This document shows positions 22,626-29,160 of a DNA stretch of 64,000 nt, piece after piece. Origin of the DNA: Flavobacteriaceae bacterium UJ101 (GTDB lineage: Bacteria; Bacteroidota; Bacteroidia; Flavobacteriales; UJ101); NCBI GenBank assembly GCA_001880285.1, contig CP016269.1, positions 496,001 to 560,000 of the forward strand, given 5' to 3'. The notes under the pieces were generated by a model. It made no database searches and had not been told where the DNA came from. It saw only the letters and a program-made list of their open reading frames with translations. Position 1 is the first letter of the stretch; every line of letters begins with the position of its first letter. The translations under genes and the position numbers were made by a program.

Positions 22626-22706
22626 AAGTTTTTTACAAGTCCGTAAAACTATAATTATATACTATTTTATACTATATTGTTATTTCAACTAAAATCAAAG
22701 AGAACA

Positions 22707-24263
22707 ATGAATGTAACACAGAGAACACTTTTATCATGTGTCGTATCAATTAGTATTTTTATTTCTTGTGAAAATGAAAGTCAACAAATTGATTCTACAA
22801 CTCTATCTTCTAACACTACGACTTCTGATTTACTAACCAAATCTGAAATTGATCAAATTATTTATAACAAATTAGAAAAAAACGGGAAATTTGAATGGAA
22901 TATGGTAGACGATCATGTTTTGATTAGCGCTTTAATTCTTTCAGATTCTATTGCCAGTATTGGGTACAATGCAACATCTTCTGATTACGTTAATTATGAA
23001 TCTTTTAATCAAAGTGCTCGATCATTTGACGAGACCAAAGCTAAAATTAAAGCTATTTTTGCAACAACCTCAAGCAATCGATCTTTATCTACCTCAACTC
23101 AAAGTCAAAATTTCTTATACGAAGATAAAAACTTTCCTATAATAGATGTTAAAATCTACAACCAAGAAACACTAGATAGAGTTCGAGATGTAGGAAATAT
23201 ACGGTTTATAGAACCTGTTAACTATACTTTTAATGAATCTAACATAACGAGATCTAATAGTAGTTTAAGTTCTGGCTCAGGATGTGGTGATGTTGAAGCT
23301 CAATCCATTCATACCAATGATTATGTCACTATTTCTCCAAATGCTTTACAAAGTTGGAATTATACTTATATGAATATTCCTCAAGCATGGAATTATACAA
23401 CAGGGAAAAATGTTACAATTGGAGTTATCGATTCAGGTGTTTTTCAAAAGCAAAGTATGTTAAATGGTCATTTTTCCATATCAAATGCAAATAGAAATGT
23501 AGAAAACTATGGAACTTATGTAGATTCATGGTGGCCATGGAGCACTGAAACAGATGGCGTCTGGGACAAATGCGGTCACGGTACCCAAATGGCAGGAATT
23601 GCTACAGCACCTCGTTCCAATAAAGGCACTCCCGTTGGCGTTGCTTATGATGCTAATTTAATTACAGTTAGAGCAACTAGTAATGTTGTTTTAGATAGTT
23701 ATCATGAACAAAAAGGAGTGGCTAATGCATTACGTTTACTTGCCGATAGACCAGATGTTAAGATTATTAGTATGTCTTTAGGCCATATTGCATCTGTTGG
23801 ACGTATTGAAGATGCTGTAAAATATGCATATGCTAAAGGTAAAATCATTGTAGCAGCGGGTGGAACTTCTACTACTTTTACAACTTGGTATGGTGTTATT
23901 TTTCCTGCCTGGATGCCTGAAACGGTTGCTGTTACAGGTATTACAGATGCTACTGATTATGAAACTTGTGATATTTGCCATGATGGTAAAGAAATTGATT
24001 TCACTATTGTAATGCAACGCTCTGGAAATGGAAACCGGAATGCTCTTACATTACCTCAAAATGGTTATGGTTCACGTTATGTAAGCGGTTCTTCTGCTGC
24101 TACAGCCACTTTTGCAGGTATTAGTGCTTTAGTATGGAGTAAATATCCTAATGAATCAAGAGAACAAATTTTAGACCGATTGAAAAAAGCAGGGGAATTT
24201 TACCCAAATAAGAATGGTGATTACGGTTGGGGAACTGTAGATGCTTTAAAAGCCATTCAATAA
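22707..24263 (+). CDS. S8 subtilisin-family protease lipoprotein
   Basis: A 518-residue subtilase anchored as a lipoprotein (SISIFISCENES, lipidated Cys about 18). The catalytic triad is readable: Asp in TIGVIDSGVF, His in DKCGHGTQMAGIAT and Ser in SGSSAATATFAG. The usual oxyanion Asn (AAGN) is replaced: the sequence reads IIVAAGGTSTTF. The serine motif also lacks the normal Pro (GTSxAxP). It may have altered activity. An N-terminal region of about 190 residues before the catalytic domain could be a pro-domain. The start used is ATG 22707; an upstream in-frame TTG at 22677 is less likely. Confidence 0.88.
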   Translation: MNVTQRTLLSCVVSISIFISCENESQQIDSTTLSSNTTTSDLLTKSEIDQIIYNKLEKNGKFEWNMVDDHVLISALILSDSIASIGYNATSSDYVNYESFNQSARSFDETKAKIKAIFATTSSNRSLSTSTQSQNFLYEDKNFPIIDVKIYNQETLDRVRDVGNIRFIEPVNYTFNESNITRSNSSLSSGSGCGDVEAQSIHTNDYVTISPNALQSWNYTYMNIPQAWNYTTGKNVTIGVIDSGVFQKQSMLNGHFSISNANRNVENYGTYVDSWWPWSTETDGVWDKCGHGTQMAGIATAPRSNKGTPVGVAYDANLITVRATSNVVLDSYHEQKGVANALRLLADRPDVKIISMSLGHIASVGRIEDAVKYAYAKGKIIVAAGGTSTTFTTWYGVIFPAWMPETVAVTGITDATDYETCDICHDGKEIDFTIVMQRSGNGNRNALTLPQNGYGSRYVSGSSAATATFAGISALVWSKYPNESREQILDRLKKAGEFYPNKNGDYGWGTVDALKAIQ

Positions 24264-26091: not shown

Positions 26092-26150
26092 TTATTTTAC
26101 TATTTATAACGAATTTCTATTATTTTAATGATCTATTCAATAAAAAGTTA

Positions 26151-26159
26151 CTGAACTGT
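26151..26159 (-). promoter_or_regulatory. Single LytTR-type half-site before the kinase gene
   Basis: The minus strand reads ACAGTTCAG, identical to one half of the operator at 27276-27305. It overlaps the 3' end of the DUF2306-like gene, 60 bases before the kinase ATG. No good partner lies at 21-base spacing, so its function is doubtful. Confidence 0.3.
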
Positions 26160-26803
26160 TAATTTTTAGGGTTGAGTTGTCCCACTTTTCGAGTCCAATA
26201 AATCAAAACTGGAATAAATATGAAACTAGGAAGGATCCATACTAAAAATGCGGGTTCTACAAAACGAACATTAGTTACAACAAAAGCAGTAAACGCTGCA
26301 ATATAAGACCCTATCATACGCTGAATATGAACTACTAGCCAAGCATTTTTATATTGATAACGATTCGTATACACTTTATAATCTGTTCTAATCATCAATA
26401 AGCCAAACATTCCTATAAAAATTGGAACTACCCCCATTGTATCCTTTAGTGTAAATAAATACATTCCCATTACGATAAATAGAACTAAAATACAGAACAT
26501 ACAACCCGAGATTACATAATCAAGAAAACTTGCCTTTTGATTTTGTAAACGGAGCAATCGTACACCCGTCCCAATTTTATATAAAACAAAAATCCCTAAT
26601 ACAGCTAAAAAACCATTCTCACGAATATACGATAATATTAAAGATGATATCCCTGTAACAATCATTCCATAACTATAAATCCATCCTATTTTATGATGCC
26701 ATTTTCCTCCTTTCTTTATGCTTAAAACCAGCGCTCCAGAAAATAAACTTATAAACCCTCCTATAATATGAAGGGTTAAAAATAAATTAAATACGGTTTC
26801 CAT
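26159..26803 (-). CDS. DUF2306-like integral membrane protein
   Basis: A 214-residue membrane protein with about seven hydrophobic helices. The start (NLFLTLHIIGGFISLFSGALVLSIKKGGKWHHKIGWIY) carries the His and Gly pattern seen in DUF2306 and related predicted heme or quinone membrane proteins. Histidines in LHIIGG, KWHHKIG and VHIQRMIG could be ligands, but that is inference. It begins one base after the DUF2141 stop and precedes the two-component genes in the same direction, so all four probably form an operon. Confidence 0.65.
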   Translation of the reverse strand: METVFNLFLTLHIIGGFISLFSGALVLSIKKGGKWHHKIGWIYSYGMIVTGISSLILSYIRENGFLAVLGIFVLYKIGTGVRLLRLQNQKASFLDYVISGCMFCILVLFIVMGMYLFTLKDTMGVVPIFIGMFGLLMIRTDYKVYTNRYQYKNAWLVVHIQRMIGSYIAAFTAFVVTNVRFVEPAFLVWILPSFIFIPVLIYWTRKVGQLNPKN

Positions 26804-26804
26804 T

Positions 26805-27206
26805 CTACTTTATCATTTTCATTGTTACTTTCTCATCTTGCTTAATTTCTATAGCAAAATGTTCAAATGTTGGATTTTCTCGTGGAATGTACTCATTTGA
26901 AAAAGCATACCATTCTTTCCCATAATCATAAAAATAATTTTCATTCGTATCTACAAACGCAACAATTCCATATCTACCTTGAGGCAACTCGAACCTTACT
27001 CTATTTGAATCTTTTGCAACCTTTTTAGAAACAGCTTCTACAGCTTCATATTTTCCCCATTTTTCTTGAGAATCAAAAACAGCAATCATTAAAGCTCCCT
27101 CTTCTGGAGTATTCTCAATTTCTAATTCTAACGATACTGTTTCTTGTGCTTGTACCATCATTAAACTACTTAAACTAAATCCTAATGCTAAAAAAAATGT
27201 TTTCAT
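26805..27206 (-). CDS. DUF2141 secreted protein
   Basis: A 133-residue exported beta-rich protein of the DUF2141 family: VSLELEIENTPEEGALMIAVFDSQEKW, then RFELPQGRYGIVAFVDTNENYFYD. Signal peptide residues are about 1-20 (ending VQAQ). Family function is unknown; members are often encoded near membrane or regulatory genes in Bacteroidota. It is the first gene of the operon that ends with the LytS/LytTR pair and carries the LytTR operator upstream. Confidence 0.8.
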   Translation of the reverse strand: MKTFFLALGFSLSSLMMVQAQETVSLELEIENTPEEGALMIAVFDSQEKWGKYEAVEAVSKKVAKDSNRVRFELPQGRYGIVAFVDTNENYFYDYGKEWYAFSNEYIPRENPTFEHFAIEIKQDEKVTMKMIK

Positions 27207-27231: not shown

Positions 27232-27239
27232 CAAAGATC
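27232..27239 (-). promoter_or_regulatory. Probable -7 box of the DUF2141-lytTR operon
   Basis: The minus strand reads GATCTTTG, one mismatch from TAnnTTTG, 25 bases before the ATG at 27206. The LytTR-type operator is centred about 65 bases upstream of the expected start of transcription. Confidence 0.4.
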
Positions 27240-27275
27240 ATATGGAAGCTTCTATTCTAAAATTATTTATATCTG

Positions 27276-27305
27276 AACTGTTATTTTTAAGTTCTCAACT
27301 GTCAT
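27276..27305 (-). promoter_or_regulatory. LytTR operator: paired 9-bp direct repeats
   Basis: On the minus strand there are two 9-bp repeats, ACAGTTGAG and ACAGTTCAG, with a 12-base spacer (21-bp period). Both fit the AgrA/LytTR consensus (T/A)(A/C)(C/A)GTTN(A/G)(T/G). The position about 65 bases upstream of the operon promoter is right for activation by the LytTR regulator encoded at the end of the same operon. Confidence 0.7.
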
Positions 27306-27426: not shown

Positions 27427-29160
27427 ATGCCTAAAGGAATTTATTATGTTCCAAAAGCTGTAAACGAACCAATCAACAGCTATGCACCAGGAACTCCTGA
27501 ACGATTAGAATTACAAGCCAAATACAAAGAGATGTACAATACTGTTGTGGATATACCACAATATATAGGTGCAGACGAAGTACGTAGTGGTAACAAAGTT
27601 TCCATTCATCCTCCTCATGATCACCAACATACCGTTGGATTTTTTCATGAAGGAAATTCAGATGATGTTAAAAAAGCAATCGAAACGGCTTTAGAAGCTC
27701 GTGAAAAATGGGCTGCCCTAGCATGGGAACAACGTGCTTCTATTTTTTTAAAAGCAGCTGAATTAATTGCTGGACCTTACCGTGCAAAAATTAATGCGGC
27801 TACTATGATTGGACAAAGTAAAAATGCTTTCCAAGCAGAAATTGATTCCGCTTGTGAATTCATTGACTTTTTACGTTTCAATGTTCAATACATGACAGAA
27901 ATATACGGTGAGCAACCTATTTCTTCTCCTGGTGTTTGGAATCGTGTTGAATACCGCCCTTTAGAAGGATTTTTATATGCTGTAACACCTTTTAACTTTA
28001 CGGCAATTGCTGGGAATTTACCTTCTTGTATGGCTATGATGGGGAATGTAGTAGTTTGGAAACCTTCTGATAAGCAAGTTTATTCCGCTCAAGTTATTAT
28101 GGAAGTATTCAAAGAAGCTGGATTACCTGATGGTGTAATCAATATGGTTTTAACAGATCCTGTTGAAACAACTCAAATTTGTTTTGAACACCCTGATTTT
28201 GCAGGAATCCACTTTACAGGTTCTACTCATGTATTCAAAAAATTCTGGACACAAATAGGAAATAATATTGATCTTTATAAAACATACCCTCGAATTGTAG
28301 GTGAAACAGGTGGTAAAGATTTTATTTTTGCACATCCTTCAGCTCATGCAAAACAAGTAGCAACAGCTATTTCTCGTGGTGCATTTGAATATCAAGGACA
28401 AAAATGTTCAGCTGCTTCTCGTGCTTATATTCCAAAAAGTATCTGGAATGAAGTTCGTGATTTTGTAAAAGCTGATCTTGAATCTTTCAAAGTAGGAACT
28501 ACACAAGATTTTGGAAACTTTATCAATGCCGTAATCAGTCAAGAATCATTTGATAAAATCAAAGGATTTATTGATCGTGCTAAAGATAGTACTGATGCTG
28601 AAGTTATCATAGGAGGAACTTGTGATGATTCTGTTGGATATTTTGTACATCCTACCGTTATTGAAACAACCAATTCAAAATACGAAAGTATTTGTGATGA
28701 GATTTTTGGACCTGTTATCACCGTTTATGTTTACGAGGATGAAGATTGGAAAGATACATTAGAATTAATTGATGGAACGTCTGTTTATGCTTTAACGGGG
28801 GCTATTTTCTCACAAGATCGTTATGCGGCTGATTTTGCAACCAAAGCTTTAGTTAACGCTGCGGGTAATTTTTATATTAACGATAAACCAACTGGTGCTG
28901 TTGTAGGACAACAACCATTTGGAGGAGCTCGTGCGTCAGGAACTAATGATAAAGCAGGTTCTGCTCAGAATTTATTACGTTGGGTATCTCCTCGTACTAT
29001 TAAAGAAACTTTCGTTTCTCCTACAGATTATCGTTATCCTTTCTTAGAAGATAGTGCTGTTGAAACCGTAGAAAAAACAGTTCAAAATGTTGAAGCTGAA
29101 GTTAAAAACGTAGTAAATAAATTAAAAGAAATTGGAAAAGATATTACAAAAGATTGGTAA
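27427..29160 (+). CDS. pruA: 1-pyrroline-5-carboxylate dehydrogenase with C-terminal tail
   Basis: It oxidises glutamate semialdehyde/P5C to glutamate with NAD+, the second step of proline breakdown. It is an aldehyde dehydrogenase fold with FTGSTHVF and VGETGGKDF (catalytic Glu) and EYQGQKCSAASRAY (catalytic Cys327), and GGARASGTNDKAG near the C terminus. After the normal end near DYRYPFLE there is an extra, charged, helical tail of about 38 residues (VETVEKTVQNVEAEVKNVV...), making 577 residues, which is longer than I expect for flavobacterial PruA (about 540). A clean terminator follows. Confidence 0.95.
   Translation: MPKGIYYVPKAVNEPINSYAPGTPERLELQAKYKEMYNTVVDIPQYIGADEVRSGNKVSIHPPHDHQHTVGFFHEGNSDDVKKAIETALEAREKWAALAWEQRASIFLKAAELIAGPYRAKINAATMIGQSKNAFQAEIDSACEFIDFLRFNVQYMTEIYGEQPISSPGVWNRVEYRPLEGFLYAVTPFNFTAIAGNLPSCMAMMGNVVVWKPSDKQVYSAQVIMEVFKEAGLPDGVINMVLTDPVETTQICFEHPDFAGIHFTGSTHVFKKFWTQIGNNIDLYKTYPRIVGETGGKDFIFAHPSAHAKQVATAISRGAFEYQGQKCSAASRAYIPKSIWNEVRDFVKADLESFKVGTTQDFGNFINAVISQESFDKIKGFIDRAKDSTDAEVIIGGTCDDSVGYFVHPTVIETTNSKYESICDEIFGPVITVYVYEDEDWKDTLELIDGTSVYALTGAIFSQDRYAADFATKALVNAAGNFYINDKPTGAVVGQQPFGGARASGTNDKAGSAQNLLRWVSPRTIKETFVSPTDYRYPFLEDSAVETVEKTVQNVEAEVKNVVNKLKEIGKDITKDW

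Follow-up and report, generated by a model that had tools for sequence, protein, structure and literature searches.

The locus considered here raises the question of whether a pair of 9-bp direct repeats upstream of an operon in Flavobacteriaceae bacterium UJ101 is the site through which the operon's own LytTR-type regulator controls its synthesis. The window analyzed is a stretch of 64,000 nucleotides (positions 496001–560000) of the single contig of 3,074,209 bases, and the operon on its minus strand encodes a DUF2141 protein, a DUF2306-like membrane protein, a LytS-type sensor histidine kinase and a REC-LytTR response regulator. This gene order, proposed in an initial annotation of the sequence, is correct according to profile matches. 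The co-encoded kinase and regulator match PF06580, PF00072 and PF04397, all above cut-off, and the DUF2306-like protein, although below the Pfam cut-off, aligns with DUF2306-type relatives. Two repeat pairs were found, one upstream of the DUF2141 gene (operator 1) and one inside the operon (operator 2), as listed in Table 1. They are likely to be operators of the operon's own REC-LytTR regulator, with a positive autoregulation that would amplify an envelope response.

Operator 1 is the sole exact match to the AgrA-style pattern ACAGTTNAG-N12-ACAGTTNAG in the 64-kb window, and the 3.07-Mb genome is matched exactly once, at the same site. The initial description was of a pair agreeing with the consensus at every defined position, with a 12-base spacer and a 21-base period. 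Spacer and period are borne out, and the pair is real and on the minus strand, but it lies 3 bases away from the placement at 27276–27305. The repeats were also said to lie about 65 bases upstream of the promoter, which was mistaken: from their end it is 33 nt to the −7 box and 10 nt to the −33 position, and the DUF2141 start codon lies about 66 nt away. With up to 3 mismatches allowed, the window contains 2 matches compared with 0.64 expected from shuffles, a count of 2 being reached in 11 of 100 shuffles. Genome-wide there are 23 such matches compared with 49 for the reversed control pattern, indicating that weak AgrA-style matches are noise. The genome scan with the repeat pair that the initial annotation had suggested returned its one exact match, and mismatched copies were no commoner than in controls.

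The repeats were next compared among relatives at the level of the order, taken to be Flavobacteriales, in 296 genomes, with a DUF2141 match in 60, a DUF2306 match in 30 (expect value 0.001) and a kinase match in 124 (expect value 1e-20). Forty neighborhoods were fetched, 32 with the kinase (training loci) and 8 picked for DUF2306 (L135–L142). A first simple scan of 41 regions, including the window's own, gave 36 pairs matching at least 13 of 16 positions compared with 15 for the reversed pattern. A weight matrix was then refined on sites of the 32 kinase loci, on the kinase strand only and with the window excluded. Its consensus is approximately ACMRTTCRG-N12-ACMRTTCRG with an A-rich spacer, and most of the information in the repeats resides in the C at positions 2 and 7 and the final G. 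Position 7 is free in the AgrA-type repeat consensus. Operator 1 fits that consensus as initially claimed, but in the clade there is a strong preference for C at position 7 (2.3 bits), and the AgrA consensus is a poor descriptor of the clade's motif. In the window the matrix ranks operator 2 first (25.9) and operator 1 second (22.7), the third best score being 10.5.

A site scoring at least 20 is present in 31/32 training loci, where 63 sites share the strand of the kinase and 2 have the opposite one; these presence and strand counts are partly circular, since the matrix was trained on the same loci. The cleaner test is a held-out set consisting of the next 20 unfetched rows of the kinase match list, scanned with the matrix frozen. 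All 20 loci contain a site at this score, 42 of 43 sites lie on the kinase strand, and the reversed matrix finds no sites in these loci. Relatives that keep the operon therefore retain the repeats, whose absence there had been named as the observation that would refute the initial proposal. Pairs of half-sites (threshold 7) number 60 at a gap of 12 bp, whereas none of the other gaps tried, from 3 to 30, has more than 4. A matrix built from family f5 alone finds sites in 15/16 loci of f3 and f13 and in 1/15 controls, and one from f3 alone in 14/17 loci of f5 and f13 and in 2/15 controls; these family-only matrices used sites picked by the joint matrix and are not fully independent. Among control regions, L142 contains a site of 22.5 upstream of its DUF2306 gene and was dropped from the control lists of the family-only and final matrix tests, L137 scores 18.6 and 13.5, and L168 scores 12.9.

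The sites are also phased to a promoter-like element that lies outside the matrix. In 63 training sites of score at least 22, a Bacteroidota −7 box, TAnnTTTG, with at least 5/6 bases is found at offset 33 in 45 and at offset 34 in 14 (59/63), with no other offset above 9. When all 6 bases are required there are 22 at offset 33, 14 at offset 34 and at most 1 elsewhere. In the held-out loci the box lies at offset 33 or 34 in 37/43 sites. A T is found at offset 10 in 61/67 and at offset 11 in 62/67 sites, both window sites included, which defines a T-rich −33 position at offsets 10–12, so that some 10 bp separate the operators from the −33 element downstream. Operator 1 fits this geometry well, with TTT at offsets 10–12 and GATCTTTG at offset 33, and operator 2, with TTG and GAAATTCG, fits it weakly. 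A −7 box at a fixed distance of 33–34 nt is the arrangement expected of an activator-dependent promoter. Of the six held-out sites lacking the box, five are one recurrent sequence (L249 3494, L252 8669, L253 8314, L254 3361 and L255 3412) that lies between two normal sites in related genomes and is perhaps a conserved coding stretch. The sixth lies past the regulator gene in L241 (10229), and similar box-less sequences recur beyond the regulator gene in related genomes (L131 11519, L145 1164 and L147 10241).

Operator 2, which scores higher than operator 1, was overlooked in the initial annotation. It overlaps the DUF2306 stop codon and ends about 60 nt ahead of the kinase start, so that a separate activated start may exist for the kinase and regulator. 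Multiple operators per locus are common in the relatives too.

Table 1. Predicted regulatory elements and genes of the operon (window coordinates)
Feature	Position	Strand	Basis and remarks
Operator 1, direct repeats ACAGTTGAG-N12-ACAGTTCAG	27273–27302	minus	upstream of DUF2141; pattern search and relatives' matrix, second best score in window
Predicted promoter 1, TTT at −33 position (27262–27260) and −7 box GATCTTTG (27239–27232)	27232–27262	minus	5/6 bases of TAnnTTTG; offset conserved in relatives
Operator 2, ACAACTCAA-N12-ACAGTTCAG	26151–26180	minus	relatives' matrix, best score in window
Predicted promoter 2, TTG at −33 position (26140–26138) and weak −7 box GAAATTCG (26117–26110)	26110–26140	minus	4/6 bases
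DUF2141 gene, 133 aa	26805–27206	minus	PF09912, 54.7 bits; signal-peptide-like start (by eye)
DUF2306-like membrane protein, 214 aa	26159–26803	minus	PF10067, 28.7 bits, under cut-off of 31.6; 38% identity to L123 counterpart
LytS-type sensor histidine kinase, 342 aa	25063–26091	minus	PF06580, 88.7 bits; lacks the 2TM domain that most relatives have
REC-LytTR response regulator, 244 aa	24332–25066	minus	PF04397, 80.9 bits; PF00072, 43.1 bits; presumed binder of both operators

In the proposed mechanism, the membrane kinase would phosphorylate the REC-LytTR regulator, which would then occupy both 9-bp repeats from the same face of the helix, immediately ahead of the −33 position, and bring RNA polymerase to the promoter that follows. 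All four genes, DUF2141-DUF2306-kinase-regulator, would be expressed from operator 1, and operator 2 would provide an additional internal start for the kinase and regulator; the outcome would be positive autoregulation and an amplified response at the cell envelope. The analysis shows the sites and their conservation, the 12-bp gap, the constant distance to the promoter, the strand bias and the linkage to the genes of this regulator, whereas the binding of the regulator, its phosphorylation, activation in place of repression, the signal and the envelope role are what we infer here. The self-activating loop put forward in the initial annotation is supported by the conservation, the strand bias (63 to 2 in training and 42 to 1 in held-out loci) and the phasing to the −7 box. 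The loop is wider than proposed, with two operators here and a small regulon in the relatives.

Several points weigh against this reading. The evidence for the operators is sequence-derived throughout. The genome is the sole representative of its family in the comparison, and conservation was assessed at the level of the order. The score of operator 1 falls in the lower part of the range seen for sites in relatives, its distal repeat has G in place of the conserved C at position 7, and with the f3-only matrix one random position in 3 Mb outscored it. The −7 box of operator 2 is poor. In the matrix scan one training locus (L160) is without a site of score at least 20, and a kinase-regulator locus of the Saprospiraceae (L062) is without a site of at least 18.

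The mechanism is of a known kind, LytTR direct-repeat autoregulation. LytTR Regulatory Systems (LRS), such as HdrRM and BrsRM of Streptococcus mutans, are autoregulated operons with 9-bp direct repeats that are mostly 12 bp apart and precede the −35 element by about 10 bp (PMC6193735). The geometry of site, −7 box and −33 position in the window and its relatives matches these published operons: the window has 9-bp direct repeats upstream of the operon promoter, with a gap in the range of 11–13 bp, and the T-rich offsets 10–12, TTT and TTG in the window, are at the corresponding distance. The LRS-like examples of Bacteroides have a TATCTTTG box at their end (PMC6193735). The repeat sequence differs, being approximately ACMRTTCRG here, and an LRS has a membrane inhibitor and no kinase, whereas the present operon has a PF06580 kinase and a receiver domain in its place. 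Membership in the LRS was therefore rejected. The combination of a LytS-type kinase with a LytTR response regulator is shared with BtsSR and YpdAB of Escherichia coli, which are described as pyruvate-responsive (PMC5552118, PMC4847170), whereas the neighbors of the present pair are DUF2141 and DUF2306, joined in relatives by 2TM proteins and TonB receptors. AgrA of Staphylococcus aureus also has a LytTR domain, and its dimer binds direct repeats that precede the promoter of its own operon (PMC4227749). It differs from the present regulator in the kinase and signal, in the C preferred at position 7 of the clade's repeats and in the contact motif, FFRVNRQ here compared with FFRCHNS in AgrA. A neighboring LytTR-kinase pair of Flavobacterium johnsoniae, FJOH_RS09515/RS09520, was mutated in coevolved lines, the regulator in lines 2 and 5 and the kinase in lines 1, 3 and 4 (PMC10197871), and may or may not be the present system. 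The Riemerella pair RAYM_RS09735/RAYM_RS09740 was rejected as an ortholog, as its regulator is placed in the OmpR family (PMC5399024).

Since the sign of regulation is unreadable from sequence and the sites lie near promoters, the regulator could instead repress its own operon through them as negative feedback. This appears improbable, because the sites precede the −33 position, at a constant 33–34 nt from the −7 box, and do not cover the promoter or start, and the same geometry activates in S. mutans (PMC6193735). The choice of the operon's own regulator as the binder has to be weighed against the presence of eight LytTR genes in the genome, whose products generally recognize sites alike in form. 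The window regulator shares 43–53% identity with those of site-bearing loci, compared with 24–31% with its seven paralogs in the genome. In a tree of 36 LytTR proteins it falls with the relatives' regulators in a group of 27 (99/98), which also includes one extra G205 protein (L228p), with the seven paralogs outside; the tree has long branches and the labeled groups split weakly (58/37). At the conserved LytTR motif FhRhHRS (PMC4227749) the window regulator reads FFRVNRQ, as do most f5 relatives, and f3 proteins mostly read F[FY]R[VIT][SN]RK, whereas the paralogs keep the H; their motifs are of the H.S type, in contrast to the regulator's clade, in which RQ or RK comes after an N or S. The regions around the seven paralogs contain at most one weak motif match (L168, 12.9), whereas in training and held-out loci the site goes together with orthologs of the operon's regulator. 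Binding by another of the eight proteins is hence very unlikely. It is also hard to credit that operator 1 serves the divergent aldehyde dehydrogenase gene that starts at 27427: the site does lie in the shared gap of 220 bases, but its orientation and −7 box are directed at DUF2141, and the site is kept in relatives although no dehydrogenase match lies beside the operon in the 40 neighborhoods. Chance repeats in AT-rich DNA, which the control-level frequency of AgrA-style matches at 3 mismatches might suggest, are a negligible explanation given the conservation, the gap test, the promoter phasing, the held-out test and best matrix scores of 21.3 and 17.4 for the two strands of a 3.07-Mb random sequence.

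With autoregulation by the REC-LytTR protein as the preferred reading, the extent of its regulon was considered. In the own genome, a pattern widened to take in the sites of the relatives and of the window, and thus designed in part around the two window sites, has 2 zero-mismatch matches, both in the operon, and 22 two-mismatch matches compared with 22 for the control. Matrix scans of other stretches of this genome gave a best score of 16.6. As far as such pattern searches reach, the regulator appears to serve its own operon exclusively. The AgrA-style pattern with mismatches and the two-mismatch widened pattern were both discarded as genome-wide predictors, being no commoner than their controls. 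At approximately 473–476 kb of the same genome, two neighboring frames of about 1090 aa (L164 2418–5675 and 5979–9266) each have an alike three-mismatch AgrA-style match at or near them; these are probably paralogs and not operators.

In the relatives, a TonB-dependent receptor and a protein of about 210 aa are found upstream in the loci. The order in L123 (G180) is receptor, DUF2141, a protein of about 208 aa, kinase, 2TM genes, DUF2306 and regulator; in L132 (G012) the arrangement resembles that of the window, with DUF2141, kinase and regulator in succession; and in L034 (G255) a site behind the receptor gene is followed by DUF2141, DUF2306 and the protein of about 208 aa. Both relatives scanned fully (L131 and L123) have 2TM domains, on the kinase in L131 and as separate small genes in L131 and L123, as also in L158. 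The G205 operon (L228 1280–7705) consists of a site, DUF2141, kinase, five consecutive small 2TM genes, regulator and a second kinase-LytTR pair. In kinase-less stretches, sites precede receptor genes (L219, L220, L222, L223, L224, L227 and L232), DUF2141 genes (L034, L040, L045, L046, L220, L226 and L227, L040 being the same place as L227), a DUF2306 gene (L142) and GIN-domain (DUF2807) genes (L218, L221 and L230). Most of these stretches were found through the site itself and show kinds of target, not rates. A site at DUF2141 or DUF2306 without a kinase in the fetched stretch supports both as real targets, linked independently of the kinase operon. Among 29 DUF2141 loci fetched by protein match (L033–L061), many of which are weak matches inside long unrelated frames, 7 have a site of at least 18 (L034, L037, L040, L044, L045, L046 and L051). 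A pattern search of 27 genomes gave many single-mismatch matches that look like chance hits, after which 18 regions were fetched. Five of these (L229, L231, L233, L234 and L235) have no convincing target, and in L225 the gene behind the site has a beta-lactamase fold.

It is reasonably probable that these loci represent an undescribed, conserved envelope regulon, probably of Flavobacteriales, in which one kinase-LytTR pair acts through a 9-12-9 operator in fixed phase with a −7 box, many loci having more than one such operator, to control TonB-dependent receptors, DUF2141, the secreted protein of about 208 aa, 2TM, DUF2306 and GIN-domain proteins. The window would be a pared-down version serving its own operon, and feedback of DUF2141 and DUF2306 on the kinase is possible. 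A search of the open-licence PMC literature, which most subscription papers fall outside, found no description of this regulon, and the retrieved portions of PMC11237479, PMC10057207 and PMC5395568 contain nothing on this kinase-LytTR system. A repeat first picked out by eye has become a motif with predictive value, pointing to likely targets of a two-component system that is widespread and apparently uncharacterized. It ties DUF2141, DUF2306, 2TM and GIN/DUF2807, all families of unknown function, to one regulator, so that a shared role becomes testable.

A sequence search of the PDB matched the receiver domain as the sole part. The predicted fold of DUF2141 alone is a modest model (mean predicted local distance difference test score, pLDDT, 68), for which a fold search gave no PDB match at an expect value of 0.001 or below. 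The aligned DUF2141 proteins (26805–27206, minus strand, alignment A1) share an invariant D-x-N-x-N-xxx-D formed by D86, N88, N90 and D94, which by eye resembles a calcium-binding loop. The DUF2306-like proteins (26159–26803, minus strand, alignment A2) have three invariant histidines, H12, H36 and H159 in window numbering, which could bind a cofactor. Adjoining the regulator gene, a plus-strand reading frame of 528 aa (22677–24263) resembles by eye a subtilase-type secreted protease.
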